From Microcaldota archaeon (GTDB lineage: Archaea; Micrarchaeota; Micrarchaeia; Micrarchaeales; Micrarchaeaceae): a stretch of 52,533 nt of DNA. Where the stretch lies: positions 1 through 52,533 of the forward strand of contig JACWAL010000032.1 of NCBI GenBank assembly GCA_014874295.1. Direction: 5' to 3'. The position numbers were made by a program, and so were the translations under genes. Numbering within the stretch: position 1 is the first letter of the stretch; each line of letters begins with the position of its first letter. The notes below the pieces were generated by a model that was not told the origin of the DNA, ran no database searches, and saw only the letters and a program-made list of their open reading frames with translations. Shown in pieces: positions 1-9,205 of the stretch.

Positions 1-2
1 AG

Positions 3-114
3 ATTCTCACGGGATTTTGTCGACGGAAAATATGGCTTGTCATCGGAAGCACATGATTACGCCGTTCGACGACAGGTTTTTGCACTAAGGCAGTGTGAGA
101 ATTTTCCTGTCGTC
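3..114. repeat. Nested inverted repeats left of the mobile element
   Basis: Two inverted repeats are visible. ATTCTCAC (3-10) is matched by GTGAGAAT (95-102), and GACGACAGG (68-76) by CCTGTCGTC (106-114). The second forms a 9-bp stem around a 29-nt loop that itself holds CACT/AGTG (83-86/92-95). The two pairings are mutually compatible only in part. No coding frame is evident. It could be the terminator or RNA of a gene outside the window, or the remains of another element end. What it does is unknown. Confidence 0.4.
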
Positions 115-139
115 TAGGCGTGAAAATATTAAACTGTTA

Positions 140-248: not shown

Positions 249-941
249 ATGCCAAATTTAGAGAGCTTAACGAAATCTCAAAGAAAGCCGTTAATTGCAT
301 CATTTCTTAAAGAGATGTATTTTGACAGAAGAAGCACCATTTTTAAATGGGCGAGGCTCACAAAACAGACACCACTAATAGAAACAAAATTCTTAGGACA
401 AAACCTCATATCTTTGATAACAGGCATAAGTGGGCGTGGCTCGGCTGCAAGAGGAGATGACCTCAGAGACGGTTCTGAAGTTAAAACCTGTAGTAGATTA
501 GACCAATTGAGCAAATGTAATGAATGCGGAGCGCATGTTACAGCAATAGAAGATAGATGTCCAAATTGTGGCAGTCAGAATATCATGCGAATGACCGATT
601 CGCATTGGATTTTTACTATAAATACTCAAGCCAAAAGAAACAAGATACTTAATGCCACTCCAATGATTTATCTTCTTTTGATAGATGGATACAGACTAAA
701 AAAGAAGGATTTAGCAAAGTTTAGTGTATGGGTCATTAATCCCAAAACGGATACTTTCTTCAGAAATGGATATATTAATGATTATTATCGTAATAATTTT
801 ATAAGAAGAAGAAACGCCAGAGAAAATCCTGCACCCATGAATGTTCACCCACGAAGTCCAAAATTTGGCAGAACAGCAGCACGATTAATCTTTGAGGCAA
901 CTATGACGGATAAAGGAAAGGTAGTAATCTCAAGATTTTAG
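249..941 (+). CDS. Type II restriction endonuclease, PD-(D/E)XK fold with zinc ribbon, MamI-like
   Basis: This 230-aa protein has the catalytic signature D74-G-S-E77-V-K79, preceded by a Gly/Arg-rich stretch (GRGSAARGDDL, 62-72) and followed by a four-Cys zinc ribbon (C90, C93, C104, C107). That arrangement matches what I recall of the MamI restriction endonuclease family, whose prototype recognises GATNNNNATC; the family call is from memory, not from a search. It is expected to cut unmodified DNA. The gene is convergent with the methyltransferase and their stop codons overlap by 4 nt, the usual pairing of a restriction-modification system. The subterminal repeats lie directly upstream, so the element end probably supplies its promoter. 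The actual recognition site is not predictable here. Confidence 0.7.
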   Translation: MPNLESLTKSQRKPLIASFLKEMYFDRRSTIFKWARLTKQTPLIETKFLGQNLISLITGISGRGSAARGDDLRDGSEVKTCSRLDQLSKCNECGAHVTAIEDRCPNCGSQNIMRMTDSHWIFTINTQAKRNKILNATPMIYLLLIDGYRLKKKDLAKFSVWVINPKTDTFFRNGYINDYYRNNFIRRRNARENPAPMNVHPRSPKFGRTAARLIFEATMTDKGKVVISRF

Positions 942-1837
942 ATTTCTATAATCGCCTGCTTAAGCCTTTTTACAGCTTCGTCATAATATTTTTTGTCTAT
1001 TTCAAATCCTATGAAATCCCTTTTAAGTTTTTTGGAAACTACCGCAGTAGTGCCAGAACCCATGAAAGGGTCTAAAACCAACATGCCTTCGTTACTACTT
1101 GCCTTTATTAGTCTCTCTATCAGTTTTGCTGGTTTTTGGGTTGGATGTGCACGCTCCTCTTCATAGAAATCTATATCAGTCCAAATGTCAGTATATCCCA
1201 TTTGCGGATTATATACATACGCAACTTCAGAATAATCTTTCTTGAAATCAAGAACTTTTTCTAACCTTTCCCACATCTCTTTAGTTGGGACTTGCGCAAG
1301 TATATTTTCTCCAGTATATAACGACCAGACGCCACCACCATTAGATTTTACTTTTAGCTTTTCATTTATCTCCTTTGCAGTAAGGCCTAAAGCCTCTTGG
1401 CGTTCTTTAAGGAATTTCTTAATATTGGGTTTATTATTATAGTTAAAGAATAATATGCTCTCTGTGGTGGTTGGGAACATCTTGTAAGTGCTTGTCTTTC
1501 TACCGCTTATGCTTCTTAACCCTTTATCTATGATTATCTGTTGTCTTAGCTCAAAGTTGTGTTTGGTAATTAAGTCCATCATGCCACAGAGCGTCCTGAA
1601 GTAACCAAATAAATAAAAACATGCTGTTGGTTTTGCCACTCTTGAAGCCTGCTCTATCCATTTTTCAGACCACGCATAATAATCAGATTCTAATCTCCAT
1701 TTGAAATCCCACTCTTCATTAATTGCTTTAAAGTATGGAGGGTCGGCAATTATAAGGTCAACTGACCTATCGGGCATCTTTTTCATACCCTCTATGGAAT
1801 CTTGATTGTAGATTTTATTAGTCATCATAATAATCAC
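938..1837 (-). CDS. DNA methyltransferase, beta class (N6-adenine or N4-cytosine)
   Basis: A 299-aa S-adenosylmethionine-dependent DNA methylase. Catalytic motif IV (D32-P-P-Y35) lies near the N-terminus, and the SAM-binding motif DPFMGSGTT with the following FIGFEID lies near the C-terminus. This IV-before-I order defines the beta class, and DPPY favours N6-adenine. It would protect DNA from the neighbouring endonuclease. The start is GTG at 1837, within the GTGA that also contains the transposase stop, so translation is probably coupled to the transposase. An in-frame ATG pair follows a few codons later and could be used instead. No separate promoter is visible. Confidence 0.85.
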   Translation of the reverse strand: MIIMMTNKIYNQDSIEGMKKMPDRSVDLIIADPPYFKAINEEWDFKWRLESDYYAWSEKWIEQASRVAKPTACFYLFGYFRTLCGMMDLITKHNFELRQQIIIDKGLRSISGRKTSTYKMFPTTTESILFFNYNNKPNIKKFLKERQEALGLTAKEINEKLKVKSNGGGVWSLYTGENILAQVPTKEMWERLEKVLDFKKDYSEVAYVYNPQMGYTDIWTDIDFYEEERAHPTQKPAKLIERLIKASSNEGMLVLDPFMGSGTTAVVSKKLKRDFIGFEIDKKYYDEAVKRLKQAIIEI

Positions 1838-3039
1838 GCAACGAAAGGTTTTATACCTAACTCATGCATCTCCTCTATCAAGACCAAGATGTTATATGCT
1901 ATGAACTTGCACAATAGCTCATTAACTTGTGCAGTGTGGTTCTTTGATTTGAGGGTTTCTCCAAGCTTCTTTTTTATCGCAGAGAAGGTAGTTTCTACAT
2001 TGCTTCGTTTGTGGTAGTGTTGCAGAAAGTCCTCTTGGTTGTATTGAAAATAATGGAACATTTTGCGCCAGATGTGGCTATTGCCTTGCGGTTTGCTTAT
2101 AGAGTTCTCTTTGAATGGTATGTAAGGCACGCCGCCAGAGTTATCAATGAAGGCAAGGTTATCTCTGCTCAAATACGCTTTGTCTCCATAGGCTTCTTTT
2201 ACGTTAAAACCATTCTCTTTTGTTTGTTGCATCAATGGTATGAATTGCGGACAATCGGCACCACTTTCATCTGTTATCTCTATCGCAGTCACTATGTTTG
2301 TTTTAACGCCAACGCTGATGTGAGCCTTTAGCCACCTGCGAGACTTCTTTGTTCCATATTTGCCTTCTGCATACGCACCGAAGGAGCGTGTTGCGAAACC
2401 GCTACTATCAACTGCAAAACCACTCTCTACTGCCCTAAGCGGTGCTGATGTTATTGCTATGAGATTATGCAGTATCGGTGTGATATCCTCTCTATTGAGA
2501 AGCACGGACATCGTATTGAAGTGTGGCACGTCTTCTAAGTATCCCTTATCTTTTGCCGCACCGAATAGCGACATAGACCTTCTGCTTGACATCTGCGAAT
2601 AGACCTTCTTTATGGATACATACAACGCTGTGTTAAAGCTAAGGTTAGGTCTTCCATGTGTTTGTATTGGTTTTGGGTCGCTAACCTCTCTGACTAACTC
2701 TGCAAGTAGCTCGTCAAATAGCCTACCCTCTGATGTTTGAGCCTTGTTGTAGATGCTCCAAGCTTGTTGATAAGTGAGTCGTATTCTGTCGTTCTTAATG
2801 CCCTCTTGCGTATGTTGTTCGATATCTAAGAAATAGCGAACTGCATATGCATGTTTGCATGTTGTTTTGTGTAGCTCTGAATCAGGACAGTCGCAAATAA
2901 ATGTGTCGCTAACCTTATAAAAGCCTTGGCCACTCTGTGACTTGACGAGCCACCCTCTCTCAATGGCAGTTATCTGCTTTTTCTGGGCTATTTCATAACC
3001 ACGTTCCTGTCTTTTTTCTAAGACCTGTTTTGTTTCCAT
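1834..3039 (-). CDS. DDE transposase with N-terminal SWIM zinc finger, IS4 type
   Basis: A 401-aa transposase. The N-terminal SWIM finger reads C49-x-C51 then C61-x-H63 and probably binds DNA. The catalytic triad is D211 (AVDSSGF), D286 (YGDKAY) and E349. E349 lies in the exact Y-(2)-R-(3)-E-(6)-K arrangement (Y342, R345, E349, K356) that characterises IS4-family transposases. It should act on the inverted ends at 151 and 5321. It is transcribed leftward from the divergent region 3040-3133, and its stop overlaps the methyltransferase start by 4 nt. The ORF is full length, with no frameshift. A SWIM finger joined to an IS4-like core is less usual. Assignment to another DDE family such as IS5 is possible. 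Confidence 0.85.
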   Translation of the reverse strand: METKQVLEKRQERGYEIAQKKQITAIERGWLVKSQSGQGFYKVSDTFICDCPDSELHKTTCKHAYAVRYFLDIEQHTQEGIKNDRIRLTYQQAWSIYNKAQTSEGRLFDELLAELVREVSDPKPIQTHGRPNLSFNTALYVSIKKVYSQMSSRRSMSLFGAAKDKGYLEDVPHFNTMSVLLNREDITPILHNLIAITSAPLRAVESGFAVDSSGFATRSFGAYAEGKYGTKKSRRWLKAHISVGVKTNIVTAIEITDESGADCPQFIPLMQQTKENGFNVKEAYGDKAYLSRDNLAFIDNSGGVPYIPFKENSISKPQGNSHIWRKMFHYFQYNQEDFLQHYHKRSNVETTFSAIKKKLGETLKSKNHTAQVNELLCKFIAYNILVLIEEMHELGIKPFVA

Positions 3040-3133: not shown

Positions 3134-3274
3134 ATGCCTAAGAAACTAATCTTGAATGTCGACGAAGAAACATGGAAGGAGGTCTTAAAATACAAAATAG
3201 ACAACGACCTCGATAACAACAACGAAGCAGTCATAAAACTTATAAAATTGGGATTGAAGCGTAAGATAAAGTGA
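3134..3274 (+). CDS. Small ribbon-helix-helix (CopG/Arc-like) regulator
   Basis: A 46-aa basic protein. A short beta strand (KKLILNVDEE) is followed by two helices, the pattern of MetJ/Arc/CopG regulators. An earlier ATG at 3114 runs into a stop after eight codons, so the ATG at 3134 is the usable start. It lies between two palindromes (3101-3116 and 3323-3336), each next to a promoter. This suggests it controls the transposase-methyltransferase operon, itself and the downstream gene pair. No partner toxin is adjacent in the usual overlapping arrangement. Fold assignment is by pattern only. Confidence 0.6.
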   Translation: MPKKLILNVDEETWKEVLKYKIDNDLDNNNEAVIKLIKLGLKRKIK

Positions 3275-3322
3275 GCAGATGCAATCTGGTTCCTAAACGG
3301 AAGATATATATAATCATACGCC

Positions 3323-3347
3323 CCTGTATATACAGGTGGGTATAAAA
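3323..3347 (+). promoter_or_regulatory. Palindromic operator next to a TATA box
   Basis: The perfect 14-bp palindrome CCTGTATATACAGG (3323-3336) is followed within five bases by TATAAAA (3341-3347). Transcription would start near 3368-3372, about 15-20 nt before the start codon of the next gene. The operator overlaps the BRE position, so a bound repressor would block TFB/TBP. Confidence 0.6.
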
Positions 3348-3385: not shown

Positions 3386-3910
3386 GTGAAAATGATTTTG
3401 GTATCGGATATAGACCTAAAGTCTCCAAAGGAGATAAACGCTTCGAGCAGAGATAGTAAAAAGCAATACTATCTCGAACTACTAAGAAAACTCTTAAAGG
3501 AAAACCCAGACGGATTGACTGCAACTACCATCAGCATAGAATTAAACAAGATAAGTAAGAGGTATAGGTATAACCCCGAAACCATAATGACCTATCTAAA
3601 CCAGCTGGTGGCTATGCGTGAAGCTTATACTGTGCCTTTCGGTAATTCTATGGTCTACAAATATAATGGTAGGCTATTCCACACGGCCAAAGACCGCTTT
3701 TTTGAACTTGAGAACCGCTTTTATTATCTTTATGAAGTTGATAACCCGAATCTGAAAGAGCGGTTTCTGCTAATACAGGAGAGAGAGAAAAATGCTTATG
3801 GGATAGAGAAGGCAATAGGTGGCATAATGATACCAAAAAATAGATTAGAGGATTTCTTGGGTGCTATACGCTTAAGTTTGACGACAGGTGAACATGATGG
3901 AAGTAAGTAA
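3386..3910 (+). CDS. Hypothetical protein with probable winged-helix N-terminal half
   Basis: A 174-aa protein. Residues about 25-100 look like a winged helix-turn-helix: a helix YLELLRKLLKE, then a second helix region TATTISIELNKIS, then a recognition helix NPETIMTYLNQLVAMREAY and a beta wing ending VYKYNGR. The C-terminal part is charged and mostly helical. The start may be GTG 3386 or ATG 3392. It is the first gene of a two-gene operon: the next ORF begins inside its last codons. It is controlled by the operator/TATA at 3323-3347. Not recognised beyond this; it may regulate, or bind DNA with, the downstream protein. Confidence 0.7.
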   Translation: MKMILVSDIDLKSPKEINASSRDSKKQYYLELLRKLLKENPDGLTATTISIELNKISKRYRYNPETIMTYLNQLVAMREAYTVPFGNSMVYKYNGRLFHTAKDRFFELENRFYYLYEVDNPNLKERFLLIQEREKNAYGIEKAIGGIMIPKNRLEDFLGAIRLSLTTGEHDGSK

Positions 3911-5246
3911 AACAATAGTTCGACAAATCTTTGCAGAGGACAGACTGTATAAGAGGGAAGTAATACACCTACAAGAAGCGCAGACTACTTTCAAACTTGG
4001 TAGCATATTCAATAAGATAAAGACAAAGAGAGAGTTAGAAATAGCCCTGAATGCGACTCAACTGGGCACAAACACGGACGGAATTTCGATTCCCATACAT
4101 GTTGCAAGGGAAATGCTTGGAGAGAGGCTGGTAACACGCAATCAACGCAACTTGAGCGGGGGCGTTATGGATTCGGTTTTTGCGAACTTATTAGAGAATA
4201 CACTGATGATAGACCCTGCCATGGATATGTTGGCGGCGTCAAACAGTGTGGAAGCATATACTGATTTCATAAAAGCACTGGAACCGAGGATATCTTTTCC
4301 GAAAAGAATACTCTCATCTTTTGACAAGGACGAAAAAGGCAAGCTTCAGAAGAATAAAGACGCATATAATCTTGCATGGGAAGGATGTATAGAAGACCCA
4401 AAAGAGTATATCAGGCTATGCGAAGCTTATCTTTTCTATCCCTTCAGTTTGGGAAGCCGTATGCCGTCCTTTTTCACAAGAATGATAGAAAGTAAGGTTC
4501 CTGAGTCATTGATTCATGCTGCATTGTTAAGCAAAACTTGCAATTCAATCTGCAAAAGCAACAAGTTACCAAAGATACTCTCACTATCCATCGGTGCGAC
4601 TGCCTTATCCAGCAGGTCTCTTATAAGTGAGTTGATATCTGAAATTATGGATAAAAACGCATTCGGCAACAAGTTTGATTTTGTATCGTTATCAATGCCA
4701 AACAATGACATACACAATAGCTCTGGACAGAGGAGAAATTTCATGCTACTCTATGACATGATAATCAGGCTAAAATTCGAGTATGGCGTAAAAGCCATAA
4801 TCAACGATGTTGATGTAGCATTAGCAGAAACCTGCATGGGTATGGGCTTTAGCTATGCTACGACGCCCTTGGATGGAAATACCAGTATGACTCACTTCCG
4901 AAAATATGATACAATAAACAGCAAATACGGGAAAGCACCAATACCTATCGAATTGGACTGGTTGCCATTCGATATATTTCTTGAGGAATACAACGCCAAT
5001 GGACATCAGTATCCATTTTACTCGGCCACTGCACAATCGCTGAACGGTCACGAAGACCTAAGAGCGGAACTTACCCCAGAAGAATGGACTCGTGCCCGCA
5101 AGACAATCTTCGCAGAAGCAACAGAAGAGCTGAACTCACTGAATAGCAAGGCAGCGATAAACAAGGAGTTCGTAGAGGGGCTGAAAAAGAGGATATGGGA
5201 TTCCAATAAGACCAATTACACAAAACTTCTTACCAAAATAAATTAA
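3894..5246 (+). CDS. Unknown 450-aa cargo protein of the transposon, possible alpha/beta barrel
   Basis: No family recognised. The likely start is ATG 3894, five bases after an AGGTGA ribosome site, which places its 5' end inside the preceding gene and implies coupling. The N-terminal 150 residues are helical. From about residue 220 there is a repeated strand-helix pattern (KILSLSIGA, FDFVSLSMPNND, VKAIINDVD, GFSYATTPLDG), as in a TIM-barrel enzyme, with Asp/Asn residues at strand ends that could bind metal or substrate. There are no membrane segments and no nuclease or helicase motif. As the largest cargo gene of an R-M transposon it may be a further defence or DNA-modification function, but that is inference only. 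Confidence 0.75.
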   Translation: MMEVSKTIVRQIFAEDRLYKREVIHLQEAQTTFKLGSIFNKIKTKRELEIALNATQLGTNTDGISIPIHVAREMLGERLVTRNQRNLSGGVMDSVFANLLENTLMIDPAMDMLAASNSVEAYTDFIKALEPRISFPKRILSSFDKDEKGKLQKNKDAYNLAWEGCIEDPKEYIRLCEAYLFYPFSLGSRMPSFFTRMIESKVPESLIHAALLSKTCNSICKSNKLPKILSLSIGATALSSRSLISELISEIMDKNAFGNKFDFVSLSMPNNDIHNSSGQRRNFMLLYDMIIRLKFEYGVKAIINDVDVALAETCMGMGFSYATTPLDGNTSMTHFRKYDTINSKYGKAPIPIELDWLPFDIFLEEYNANGHQYPFYSATAQSLNGHEDLRAELTPEEWTRARKTIFAEATEELNSLNSKAAINKEFVEGLKKRIWDSNKTNYTKLLTKIN

Positions 5247-5267: not shown

Positions 5268-5321
5268 ATTAAAAGTGCAAAGCCCTGATTAAAAGTGCAA
5301 ATCATACTTTAAGTGCAAAGC
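5268..5321. repeat. Three tandemly oriented subterminal repeats at the right end
   Basis: ATTAAAAGTGCAAAGC (5268-5283), ATTAAAAGTGCAAAT (5288-5302) and CTTTAAGTGCAAAGC (5307-5321) share TTAARTGCAAA and point toward the right end, spaced by about 20 bp. This is two turns of helix, so proteins bound to them would lie on one DNA face. The outermost copy is the right terminal inverted repeat. Confidence 0.75.
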
Positions 5322-5332
5322 CAGCATTGCAG
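5322..5332 (+). repeat. Right direct repeat (target-site duplication)
   Basis: A second perfect copy of CAGCATTGCAG, immediately outside the right inverted end of the transposon. See the left copy at 140-150. Confidence 0.8.
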
Positions 5333-5375
5333 TAATCATTATATATCTGGAAAGAGACAATCTCGCAGTGATAGC

Positions 5376-5942
5376 ATGGCGATAAAGACGGCTTCTCACA
5401 ATGCGAACACGCGCATAGTCATGGCGGAGAACAGCGTGTCTGGTCTTAAGGGCAAGGAGAGGGCGAACGTCATCGAATCGGTTACGGACCGGCAGTTCGT
5501 GGAAAATGTGTGGCAATCCCACAAGTTCGTTGATGTCCTGCCAGAGGGCATGCCGAAGCAGGCCGGACTATATGAAGTCAATCTTGATCCAGATTCCATA
5601 ACTGCGGTGGACCAGGACGCATTCAACGCGCTCTTCTTCATGAGCAGGATGATTGTCACCGAATCTGCGGTGCGGTTAGCAGCCAATAGCATGCCCGTGA
5701 CCTTCAAGGTCGGATCGCTTGGCGGCACCTCAATCAATGGCAACCTCTTCGCCCTGATACTGTCTGCTGGAGGAATCCCGAACTACGCGGCGGTGCGCAA
5801 GCCGTATGAGCGCGCAGACATACCTCCGATAACGAAGGGTGAGTACATAGTCCTTACCTCCCCCACGGGCGAGGAGACGATAATAAAGCCGTCAAGGGGC
5901 ACTTCTGTGAGAATCCTCACGGAGAGCAAGCTCAGGCGCTGA
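5376..5942 (+). CDS. Hypothetical protein
   Basis: A 188-aa soluble protein with host-like GC-rich codons, unlike the transposon next to it. The start ATG 5376 is chosen because a TATA box (ATTATATAT, about 5339-5347) lies about 30 nt upstream and GTGAT precedes it; longer frames would start inside the transposon repeats. It has a Gly-rich central stretch (KVGSLGGTSINGN) and a beta-rich C-terminus. I do not recognise a family. It is followed after 9 nt by another hypothetical gene, probably in one operon. The transposon insertion lies just upstream of its promoter and may have replaced upstream control sequence. Confidence 0.75.
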   Translation: MAIKTASHNANTRIVMAENSVSGLKGKERANVIESVTDRQFVENVWQSHKFVDVLPEGMPKQAGLYEVNLDPDSITAVDQDAFNALFFMSRMIVTESAVRLAANSMPVTFKVGSLGGTSINGNLFALILSAGGIPNYAAVRKPYERADIPPITKGEYIVLTSPTGEETIIKPSRGTSVRILTESKLRR

Positions 5943-6430: not shown

Positions 6431-6988
6431 ATGGACCTCTACAAGAAGGACTACCTCCCAAAGTCCTATCTGCCTCCGAAGGAGATAAGGGATTGTAGGG
6501 ACCTTTGCAGAGAAAGGTCATTTCTCGTAGGGCAAAGGACAGCTGTGAAGAACGGGATACGTTACCAGGCATACTGTCTCGGGATAGACTTCAAGAACTT
6601 CAAGAAAAAGAGCATCAAGATGCTGAAGGAAAATGCAAAGATGAGGCTGCTGGTGGAGCAACTTGAATCTACAACAAGGACAATAAAAGAGTATGAATCA
6701 ATGATAAGCGACTCCCGAAAACAAACCCGAATGCAGTACTCATAGGCACAATCAAGGGAATAGGAAGTGTCAGCGCACTTACCATCGTATCGGAAATTGG
6801 AGACATAAACCGTTTCCAATCGGAGGGCAATCTTTTCGCATACGCTGGCATGGTCCCAAGAATATACCAGTCGGGAGATAAGGAGTGGAAAGGGCACATA
6901 ACAAAAGGGAATGTCCTGCCCTAATGGAAGTCAGTATATCGCACTGCGATGGATAGTAGAGCATTATGAAATTGGTGTAAATGTTTAA
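6431..6988 (+). pseudogene. Decayed IS110-family transposase remnant
   Basis: The frame from 6431 encodes YLPPKEIRDCRDLCRERSFL and onward, the middle part of IS110 transposases. After about 6725 the matching reading shifts frame and continues IKGIGSVSALTIVSEIGDIN, then FAYAGMVPRIYQSGDK, up to a stop near 6923. A third frame (6926-6988) encodes GSQYIALRWIVEHY, the C-terminal family segment. The N-terminal DEDD catalytic domain is missing. At least two frameshifts and a truncation make it non-functional. It shows older insertion activity near the present transposon. Confidence 0.8.
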
Positions 6989-7134
6989 AAAGGCAAATGG
7001 TGATACGTGATTACAAACACCCAATAACTCTGGCCTGTGGGTTCGGGTTGGAGAAATCAACATAGTAGTAGGTAGGAGTTTTAAGCCCGCTCTTTATATA
7101 AACCTTTTTCGCGCAAGTTCTAACGGCGATACAG

Positions 7135-7794
7135 TTGAGGAACGAAAGACCAAACCCCGTAGTGGACGCTTGTCTGAAGATGAGCTACGACCAGCCGGAA
7201 GGATGCCTGTTTGTGGTGGAACTTGACAACGTGCGCGGCTACTACAAGCCGTCGAACATGCAGATATTCAGGAAGGGAAACAAGCGTCTTTCTGTGCTGA
7301 ACGAGGCCGACAGCGTAATGATAAAAAAGCTCGCGAGCCTCGACGGCGCCATGATAATAAACAACAAGGGCCAGCTGGTGCAGGTCGGTGCGACGCTCAC
7401 GCATGCGAAGAACTTCCTGAGCCACGGCAAGCGCCATGCATTCGCGCTGGGGACGAGCGCGTACTCCCCAAAGCTTGTCTGCATGCTCGCGAGCGAGGAG
7501 GACAAGCACATACGCACATTCCGCGAGGGCTACCTGATAGCCAGCATAGACGCTGAAACGCACATGCCAGTGGACACGAGAAACAGGGTCGTGGAGCTGC
7601 TCACCTCCAGGGTAACCAGCCTGGTTGTCGCGAGCGGGATAGCGGCCAGCCTGCTGACAGTCAACCCGATACCTGCGATAGTCACGATAAGTGGCACGCA
7701 GGTAATAACATTCGAGGGCTTCGAACGCGTTCGCGAGTTCTTTGCGGGCCGCAGCAGGCGCCAGCAACCCATGAGCGGGAGCCATGCCAGATAA
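7135..7794 (+). CDS. DisA_N-domain protein, probable diadenylate cyclase (DacZ-like)
   Basis: A 219-aa protein whose central part matches the DisA_N (DAC) domain that makes cyclic di-AMP from two ATP. It shows D70-G-A72 in LDGAMIINNKGQLVQVGATL, then GKRHAFALGTSA and a strand CMLASEED, in the right order and spacing. The conserved RHR motif reads R100-H-A102, so one ATP-contacting Arg is lost; activity may be changed. Cyclic di-AMP governs osmolyte and potassium transport in other archaea. The start is TTG 7135, close behind a TATA box (CTTTATATAAACC, about 7091-7103); ATG 7180 is an alternative. It is a single gene, convergent with glutamate dehydrogenase. Confidence 0.75.
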   Translation: MRNERPNPVVDACLKMSYDQPEGCLFVVELDNVRGYYKPSNMQIFRKGNKRLSVLNEADSVMIKKLASLDGAMIINNKGQLVQVGATLTHAKNFLSHGKRHAFALGTSAYSPKLVCMLASEEDKHIRTFREGYLIASIDAETHMPVDTRNRVVELLTSRVTSLVVASGIAASLLTVNPIPAIVTISGTQVITFEGFERVREFFAGRSRRQQPMSGSHAR

Positions 7795-7819
7795 CAAGGA
7801 ATAAATGCACAGCATCTGA

Positions 7820-7847
7820 CTGGAAGGAATCAGAGGAAATCTTCCAG
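7820..7847 (+). terminator. Possible hairpin between convergent genes
   Basis: CTGGAAG (7820-7826) and CTTCCAG (7841-7847) form a 7-bp stem with a 14-nt loop in the space between the dacZ-like and gdhA 3' ends. No T-tract follows. It might aid 3' end formation of either transcript. Confidence 0.3.
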
Positions 7848-7945
7848 CGATGTGAGTTGGCGCATAAGGGGAAAAACGGCAGTTGCACAACCAGGCTCTG
7901 TTCAATGGCCTCCAAACTACTGAACGTTCACCGTGTTCAGGTACA

Positions 7946-9205
7946 TCAGTACCAGCCACGGGCCTTCATAGCGGCTGCAACCCTGCCCACCGCGATTGTA
8001 TATGCGGCCATGCGGTAGTTAATCTTCCTGCCTTTGTATTCCTTCTGTGCGTTGATGACATCCCTGAATGACTTCGTTATTATCGTGTCAAGCCTGCTGT
8101 ATACCTCGTCCCTGGTCCAGTAATACCCAGATATGTTCTGTGCCCACTCGAAGTACGAGACTATCACACCTCCCGAATTGACGAGGAAGTCCGGCATGCT
8201 CGGTATCCCGCGCTCGAATAGTATCTTATCCGCTTCAGGCGTGACTGGGCCATTCGCGAGCTCGAGCACCATCTTCGCCCTGACCTTGTCCGCGTTCGCC
8301 TTCGTTATCTGGTTCTCTATGGCCGCTGGTATGAGCACGTCCACGTCCATGTCGAGCAGCTCCTCGTTTGTTATCCTCTGCCCTCCCTTATAATCGTCCA
8401 CGGAACCGCGTTCTTTCGCCTCCTTCAGCTTCTTGTAATCAAGGCCGTTCGCGCTGTACACCCCTCCCTTCGAGTCGCTTATCGCGACCACCTTCGACCC
8501 AAACATCTTAGTCACCAGGTCGAGCGCGAAGTTGCCCGCGTTGCCGAACCCCTGTATTGCAATCTTCGCCTTCCTCAGGTTCATCTTCCTGAGCTTCGCG
8601 ACCTCGCGCAAAACGTACATGCCCCCCACTGCGGTTGAGTCGAACCTTCCCTGAGATCCCCACAACTCGAGCGGCTTGCCTGTTATCATGCCGAACTCAT
8701 CGCGCCCGTGCATCTTGCTGTACTCGTCGGCCATCCACGCCATTATCTGTGGGTTTGTGTAGACGTCAGGCGCGGGCACATCAGTGAACGGGCCGACGAA
8801 CTTGCCTATCGCCCTTATATACTGCCTTGACAGCACCTCCAGGTCCGTTTCTGACATCTTCTTCGTGTCGACTATAACGCCCCCCTTTGCCCCTCCAAAG
8901 GGTATGTCCGCGAGGGCGCATTTCCACGTCATCCATGCCGCGAGCGCCTTGACCGTATCGATGCTCTCCTGCGGATGGAACCTTATGCCCCCCTTTCCAG
9001 GGCCCCTTGCGTTGTTGTACAGCACTCTGAATCCCGTGAACGTCTTCGTGGTTCCGTTGTGCATCGTCACCGGAAAGTTGACTGTCACGCTCTGCATCGG
9101 TTCGCGGAGTATCGCGTGCACCTGCTTGTCCAGCTTCATTATCTCGGCAGCGTCGTCGAGCTGCTCCTGTGCTATCTTGAAAGGGTCAAGTTCTTCCGCC
9201 ATCAT
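7946..9205 (-). CDS. gdhA: Glutamate dehydrogenase
   Basis: A 419-aa enzyme of the Glu/Leu/Phe/Val dehydrogenase family, full length. It interconverts glutamate with 2-oxoglutarate plus ammonia using NAD(P)H in the cytoplasm, usually as a hexamer. The N-terminal domain shows GPGKGGIRFHP and PFGGAKGGV, holding the substrate-binding and catalytic lysines, and the Rossmann domain shows IAIQGFGNAG. The C-terminal SGGVIVSYFEWAQN is typical. A GTG at 9223 would add six residues, but ATG 9205 (or the adjacent ATG 9202) is preferred because it lies about 30 nt from the TATA box near 9240 and follows TGTGAT. The gene links nitrogen assimilation to the arginine-related genes further on only loosely. 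Confidence 0.95.
   Translation of the reverse strand: MMAEELDPFKIAQEQLDDAAEIMKLDKQVHAILREPMQSVTVNFPVTMHNGTTKTFTGFRVLYNNARGPGKGGIRFHPQESIDTVKALAAWMTWKCALADIPFGGAKGGVIVDTKKMSETDLEVLSRQYIRAIGKFVGPFTDVPAPDVYTNPQIMAWMADEYSKMHGRDEFGMITGKPLELWGSQGRFDSTAVGGMYVLREVAKLRKMNLRKAKIAIQGFGNAGNFALDLVTKMFGSKVVAISDSKGGVYSANGLDYKKLKEAKERGSVDDYKGGQRITNEELLDMDVDVLIPAAIENQITKANADKVRAKMVLELANGPVTPEADKILFERGIPSMPDFLVNSGGVIVSYFEWAQNISGYYWTRDEVYSRLDTIITKSFRDVINAQKEYKGRKINYRMAAYTIAVGRVAAAMKARGWY

Follow-up and report, generated by a model that had tools for sequence, protein, structure and literature searches.

Introduction

The tRNA-guanine transglycosylase (TGT) fold has been put to use in conflict with mobile DNA in several described systems. 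DpdA/DpdA2 is a divergent TGT homologue tied to restriction or anti-restriction, and DpdA exchanges guanine for 7-deazaguanine in DNA in phages and bacteria (PMC6884629). In type IV CBASS the TGT-family protein Cap10 has been remodelled from tRNA base exchange to antiviral defence; it binds a deazaguanylated CD-NTase and needs the QueC-like protein Cap9 (PMC11996544). QueC has likewise been repurposed (PMC13329287). BREX-related capture (BRC) systems, archaea included, hold a TGT homologue in a defence context together with PglZ, HerA, DUF6079 and others (PMC12839542).

Here we describe a gene pair found in a stretch of 52,533 nucleotides from a Micrarchaeota archaeon, hereafter the window, which is contig C29 of an 824 kb genome (G000, 94.5% complete). 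Gene 1 is the winged-helix gene and gene 2 the putative TGT-fold gene; other G and L numbers refer to other genomes and loci. Like DpdA, the gene 2 protein appears to be a divergent TGT homologue linked to restriction. Unlike in BRC, none of PglZ, HerA and DUF6079 was recognised beside the pairs. Compared with type IV CBASS, the window element has no CD-NTase or QueC-like Cap9, G000 has no QueC match, and no CD-NTase was recognised among the pair neighbours scanned. The locus resembles the R-M cargo of insertion-sequence elements in being a transposon with restriction-modification (R-M) passenger genes, but it adds a two-gene module that recurs without the transposon.

Results

Structure of the inserted element

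The gene pair lies in an element of about 5.4 kb that also carries a MamI-type R-M system, a SWIM/DDE transposase and a ribbon-helix-helix (RHH) gene. Its left inverted terminal repeat, ATATTAAACTGTTACAGCATTGCAGGCTTTGCATTTTTAA (126-165), was found by repeat search and local alignment with the right end, and is followed by left subterminal iterons of the motif TTAAAARTGCA (TTAAAAATGCA, 155-212, with copies at 155 on the minus strand and at 182 and 202 on the plus strand). The MamI-type restriction endonuclease gene (249-941, plus strand; PF09567 RE_MamI, E 5.8e-36) is followed by a DNA methyltransferase gene (N6_N4_Mtase, 938-1837, minus strand; PF01555, E 1.2e-44), which overlaps by 4 nt with both the endonuclease gene and the transposase gene. 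The transposase (1834-3039, minus strand) is a DDE_Tnp_1 protein (PF01609, E 5.3e-24) with a weakly matched SWIM zinc finger. A small RHH-like repressor gene (3134-3274, plus strand; phrog_4738 transcriptional repressor, E 4.6e-08) is divergent from the transposase and probably belongs to the insertion-sequence unit; G188 has a small divergent gene at the same position beside its transposase. Beyond the gene pair are the right subterminal iterons (TTAAAAGTGCA, 5269-5299, plus-strand copies of the same motif at 5269 and 5289) and the right inverted terminal repeat (about 5311-5346, by repeat search), within which homology to the host returns at about 5339. The two terminal repeats aligned with a local score of 41, compared to a null mean of 18.4 (sd 3.4, maximum 40, about 2950 random pairs). 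Exact copies of TTAAAARTGCA occurred in the 52.5 kb only as the three left-end and two right-end iterons, and with 1 mismatch 8 copies were found compared to 1.1 expected, a count that no shuffle reached.

Two congeneric genomes, G188 and G189, have no insertion at this site. In both, a conserved gene, LVLAVDIDNDLY..., which we take to be DUF373-like, and a gene homologous to the one at window 5379 are divergent neighbours, and in G188 about 66 bp separate the homology blocks as compared to about 5.4 kb in G000. In G000 the LVLAVDIDNDLY gene is at the end of contig C39, the final 128 bp of which are identical to positions 1-128 of the window. On the other side homology to G188 returns at 5339, where a stretch of 19 bp shared with the intergenic region of G188 begins. 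As the flanking genes adjoin in G188 and G189, and the C39 end and position 5339 mark the boundaries in G000, about 5.4 kb was inserted. The gene pair is therefore cargo of a DNA transposon, with terminal inverted repeats and a site that is empty in relatives, as the sequence-only reading had proposed. No terminal repeats like those of the window were found around the other related transposons examined, so this copy of the element may be alone in having them.

Two further observations were made at the edges of the element. Just beyond the left end (window 1-125 and the end of G000:C39) part of the terminal repeat is present a second time, in inverted orientation. The stretch of about 150 bp enclosed by this outer copy contains more inverted motifs and resembles a hairpin remnant or a small MITE. 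On the right, the gene at 5379-5942 is of unknown family, and a search of 60 relatives found it in the window's genus alone.

The gene pair and its promoter region

Gene 1 (3386-3910, plus strand) encodes a 174 aa protein from a GTG start, with an in-frame alternative ATG at 3392. Gene 2 (3888-5246, plus strand) encodes 452 aa from a GTG start, or 450 or 449 aa from an ATG at 3894 or 3897, and has AGGTGA at 3886-3891 in its start region. Depending on the start, the two genes overlap by 14-23 nt, which bears out the translational overlap that had been proposed. Neither protein had a match above the curated Pfam cut-off, a PADLOC or NCBIfam match or a significant PHROG match, in keeping with the earlier description of a winged-helix gene with a partner of about 450 aa and unknown family. 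A match of gene 1 to RE_TdeIII (E 0.005, below cut-off) was judged to be chance.

Upstream of gene 1 is a 28-bp palindrome at 3316-3343, ATACGCCCCTGTAT followed by ATACAGGTGGGTAT, and none of 60 shuffles produced one as good. This candidate operator, already picked out in the sequence-only reading, overlaps at its 3' end with a TATA-box-like TATAAAA (3341-3347, plus strand), a putative promoter element. A scan for sigma-70 promoters and terminators gave nothing above chance. Promoter palindromes comparable to that of the window were present at L031, L032 and L033, with a weaker one at L115, and this suggests that the gene 1 protein represses its own promoter through the palindrome; clear palindromes were seen in only about 5 of 14 upstream regions of pair loci.

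Comparison of gene 2 of the window with the fragment in G196 gave a pS of 0.84 and a pN of 0.155. Between L033 and L034 dN/dS was 0.07 for gene 1 and 0.08 for gene 2, and between two copies in G303 it was 0.18 and 0.17. Homologous copies of both genes are under strong purifying selection, and these values indicate that both genes are real. In L034, from Woesearchaeota, gene 2 (6470-7750) is interrupted by an in-frame stop, and the part downstream of it is strongly purifying-selected relative to L033.

The gene 1 protein appears to combine a winged helix with a C-terminal PUR/PC4-like domain. A profile of 8 gene 1 sequences (A6) matched Pur-alpha with an E of 3.6e-4 over positions 101-157, the C-terminal part, and its N-terminal part gave weak matches to winged-helix (wHTH) proteins. 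The signature Y-[YF]-P-N-G-[KR] is aligned across the gene 1 proteins of 8 loci. Many winged-helix matches (for example L054-L103, some with PAS domains) had no partner gene and were set aside as members of a broader family. Viral contigs scanned at the family level with gene 1 alignments yielded no relative.

Distribution and neighbourhood of the pair

Searches for the pair, seeded mostly on gene 1, recovered 16 loci in four archaeal groups, one of them with a gene 2 fragment only. Every full-length gene 2 that was found lies directly behind a winged-helix gene. The gene 2 relatives reached through gene 1 are those of G147, G125 and G181, of seven GTDB loci (three of which are the same Micrarchaeota) and of the Thermoplasmatota and Nanoarchaeota genomes. 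Among 301 genomes of the phylum to which the window belongs, gene 2 as query hit 3, and one of these hits was weak and not related to the family; with gene 1 as query a few further pairs came to light. One Thermoplasmatota genome, G303, has the pair three times, on contigs C24, C56 and C91 (L035, L115 and L114). The closest gene 2 relative, L030/L002 (G196:C20:1-1022), is 75% identical to the window gene and cut by the contig end, and is directly followed by a DUF4145-like gene. A tblastn match in G007 (L003) was antisense to CTP synthase and was discarded.

Genes of R-M systems are frequent neighbours. Using ten DNA methyltransferase queries, with each locus's own left out, a DNA methyltransferase was detected near 7 of 16 pair loci compared to 3 of 40 control windows (Fisher p = 0.0035), a comparison in which three loci come from one genome and are not fully independent, some pair loci are shorter than 13 kb, which biases against the pair, and the queries derive partly from pair loci, so that the control is possibly biased to those types despite the leave-one-out. 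The control windows were taken from seven pair-carrying genomes and the window itself, and L148, one of the hits among these controls, turned out to be a transposase/type IIG element in its own right. About half of the pair loci had no nearby methyltransferase in this test. Other neighbours of the pair include a type III R-M ResIII protein and PD-(D/E)XK, HNH, TIR and NYN proteins. At L112 a TIR-domain protein (7735-8304; PF13676, weak ThsB_TIR) adjoins and is divergent from the pair, and a type IIG enzyme is downstream; this region is possibly a defence island.

Transposases of the same family adjoin the pair in 5 of the 16 loci: the window, L036, L111, L114 and L139. Outside the window the pair thus has this transposase family as a neighbour at four loci, which speaks against its absence from all other mobile elements. 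In G307:C22, G306:C3 and G188:C6 the transposase family has R-M genes next to it but no pair. In the first of these (L140:4692-8204) the transposase is accompanied by a MamI-type endonuclease and a methyltransferase 66% identical to that of the window, an arrangement of modular cargo.

Fold assignment of the gene 2 protein

Single-sequence searches with gene 2 found no relative in Pfam, PHROGs, PADLOC, NCBIfam, PDB, plasmids, phages or viral contigs, and the sequences in the gene 2 alignment diverged too far for the viral contigs to be scanned at the family level. The 452-aa protein of the window had no PDB sequence match. The TGT profile PF01702 matched 0 of 14 gene 2 members, and this housekeeping-enzyme family thus does not recognise the protein. 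A short match of L035 to PDC-M27C (E 0.0015) was judged to be chance.

Family-level comparisons were more informative. A gene 2 profile built without the window protein found it with an E of 9.8e-22, and leave-one-out profiles recovered 15 of 15 members with an E of 2.2e-9 or better. In 14 of the 15 leave-one-out searches an archaeosine TGT was the best match outside the family (E 0.0015-0.33), a count in which the 'background' ORF 1594 is the same archaeosine TGT. One Micrarchaeota member matched the archaeosine TGT 1iq8 with an E of 4.7e-6, a 14-sequence profile matched it with an E of 4e-6 in the zinc region only, and hhalign of the gene 2 family with two archaeal TGTs gave a probability of 88.7 and an E of 2.6e-6.

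Structures were predicted for the window protein (model AF2) and for L035 using different lead sequences of one 8-sequence set, and both models were of low confidence (mean pLDDT 48.6 and 52.2; pTM 0.51 and 0.56). Plain Foldseek searches with both returned generic TIM barrels only, none with an E of 0.001 or less. In a second look with VIA-align the top 50 re-aligned PDB matches were all TGTs for both low-confidence models, with Z of 11.6-12.9. The best match was 4q8t for the window model (Z 12.3, 243 residues, 4.8 A) and 1p0d for the L035 model (Z 12.9, 298 residues, 4.7 A). The structure prediction and structural search, together with the sequence evidence, give good support for predicting that the gene 2 protein is a divergent (beta/alpha)8 barrel of the TGT superfamily. 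At L139 (2317-4014) the TGT-like member is longer, at 565 aa, and is flanked by its winged-helix gene on one side and a transposase of the same family on the other.

Active site and host chemistry

Active-site columns were read from a MAFFT alignment of these very divergent sequences with two archaeal TGTs. As in archaeosine TGT (PF01702, TIGR00432; PDB 1iq8, 1p0d, 4q8t), the general-base Asp of the TDSG motif is kept, in 12 of 14 members (D109 in IDPAMD in the window), the predicted barrel is the same, and the C-terminal region aligns with 1iq8. The zinc site CxCxxC...H is complete in L032, L033, L034 and L035 and partial in L031, L047 and L079; its ligands are absent from the window copy and from L036, L037, L049, L104, L105 and L139. 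In contrast to archaeosine TGT, the nucleophile Asp of the FD motif is found in none of 15 members, with S, T, V, I or C in its place (T in the window), and neither the guanine-site Gln nor the paired Gly (GG) is present in any of the 15.

With the nucleophile and the residues for guanine/preQ0 recognition gone, the classical exchange of preQ0 for guanine appears unlikely for the gene 2 protein. As one catalytic Asp is kept and the nucleophile and guanine-site residues are missing, the protein may either catalyse a changed reaction or serve in binding or as a scaffold. The earlier suggestion that the larger protein is an enzyme may hold: the predicted fold is that of an enzyme superfamily and one catalytic Asp is present, but the nucleophile and guanine-site residues are lost.

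The hosts were searched for TGT (PF01702), and none was found in the 7 DPANN hosts tested (G000, G196, G301, G302, G305, G306 and G307); it is present in G303 and G304. QueC (PF06508) had no match in G000 or G302, weak or partial matches in the other DPANN hosts and strong matches in Thermoplasmatota. A preQ0-inserting enzyme in G000 would therefore need to import its substrate. With TGT missing from these archaea, and preQ0 synthesis too as far as the searches went, the gene 2 protein is probably engaged in something different from the classical TGT reaction.

Discussion

We regard the pair as a probable defence or addiction module of a kind not described before, because it recurs in four archaeal groups, often near R-M genes, and a defence role is suggested by this association. 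The earlier proposal of an undescribed system is a fair reading of these 16 loci. We favour a mobile, autorepressed two-gene defence or addiction module in which gene 2 encodes a TGT-fold effector with a remodelled site, and we give this full description an even chance of being right. The pair would be carried together with R-M genes as an autoregulated cargo module. The gene 1 protein would bind the palindrome at its own promoter, would probably bind nucleic acid more generally, and would act as a regulator or targeting partner of the gene 2 protein. The gene 2 protein, most likely the effector, would recognise a base or a nucleic-acid end through its remodelled TGT pocket, and together the two proteins would act against foreign DNA or RNA, or as an addiction function. 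Such a TGT-fold effector with a remodelled site, the most likely role, would be analogous to DpdA and Cap10. The gene 2 protein may instead be a non-catalytic binding subunit, as it has no conserved catalytic set beyond one Asp, and this counts against its being the effector.

A more specific proposal, which we put forward tentatively, is that the pair forms a new system of antiviral defence or addiction in archaea: a nucleophile-less TGT fold and its winged-helix/PUR partner would carry out a new base-directed chemistry, such as base excision or the sensing of modified bases or nucleic-acid ends. A toxin-antitoxin system is possible though doubtful. Here the winged-helix protein would be both antitoxin and autorepressor, and the TGT-fold toxin would attack tRNA or DNA bases and so stabilise the transposon or R-M element. 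The bicistronic, overlapping arrangement with a small DNA-binding gene first and an operator palindrome in the promoter is what such a system would look like, as are its place on a mobile element and the three copies in one genome, but no known toxin-antitoxin family was matched and a PUR-like domain is unusual for an antitoxin.

DNA modification of the Dpd kind is unlikely. It would have the winged-helix/PUR protein deliver the TGT-like enzyme to DNA, where guanine would be replaced by 7-deazaguanine, marking self or evading restriction. The superfamily, the DNA-binding partner and the R-M neighbourhood agree with this, and DpdA sets a precedent in phages and bacteria (PMC6884629). However, the nucleophile Asp and the guanine-site residues are missing from 15 of 15 members, the DPANN hosts tested have no TGT and G000 no QueC, the partner is a winged-helix/PUR protein, and no dpdB- or dpdC-type gene was recognised in the subset of neighbours scanned.

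We also consider it improbable that the two proteins are accessory transposition factors of the SWIM/DDE transposon, serving target choice or control and not defence. The transposase adjoins the pair in 5 of 16 loci, and 5 of the roughly 9 transposase loci in pair-carrying genomes adjoin a pair, but at 11 loci the pair has no neighbour of this family, the transposase is altogether absent from several genomes that carry the pair, and the copies in G188, G306, G307:C22 and G494:C27 are without a pair. A divergent TGT paralogue with a tRNA-related housekeeping or regulatory function, hitch-hiking on mobile DNA, would fit the fold and the zinc site kept by several relatives but is very improbable given the patchy distribution (3 of 301 genomes of the phylum by gene 2 search, one an unrelated weak match), the mobile context and the absence of canonical TGT from the DPANN hosts tested.

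If the favoured reading of a TGT-fold effector module is true, DpdA, BRC and Cap10 would be joined by one more case in which the TGT fold was independently drawn into conflict with mobile DNA. DPANN archaea, in which defence has received little study, would gain a module of two genes that is compact and open to testing, and the transposase family beside it would be a repeated carrier of both R-M genes and the pair.
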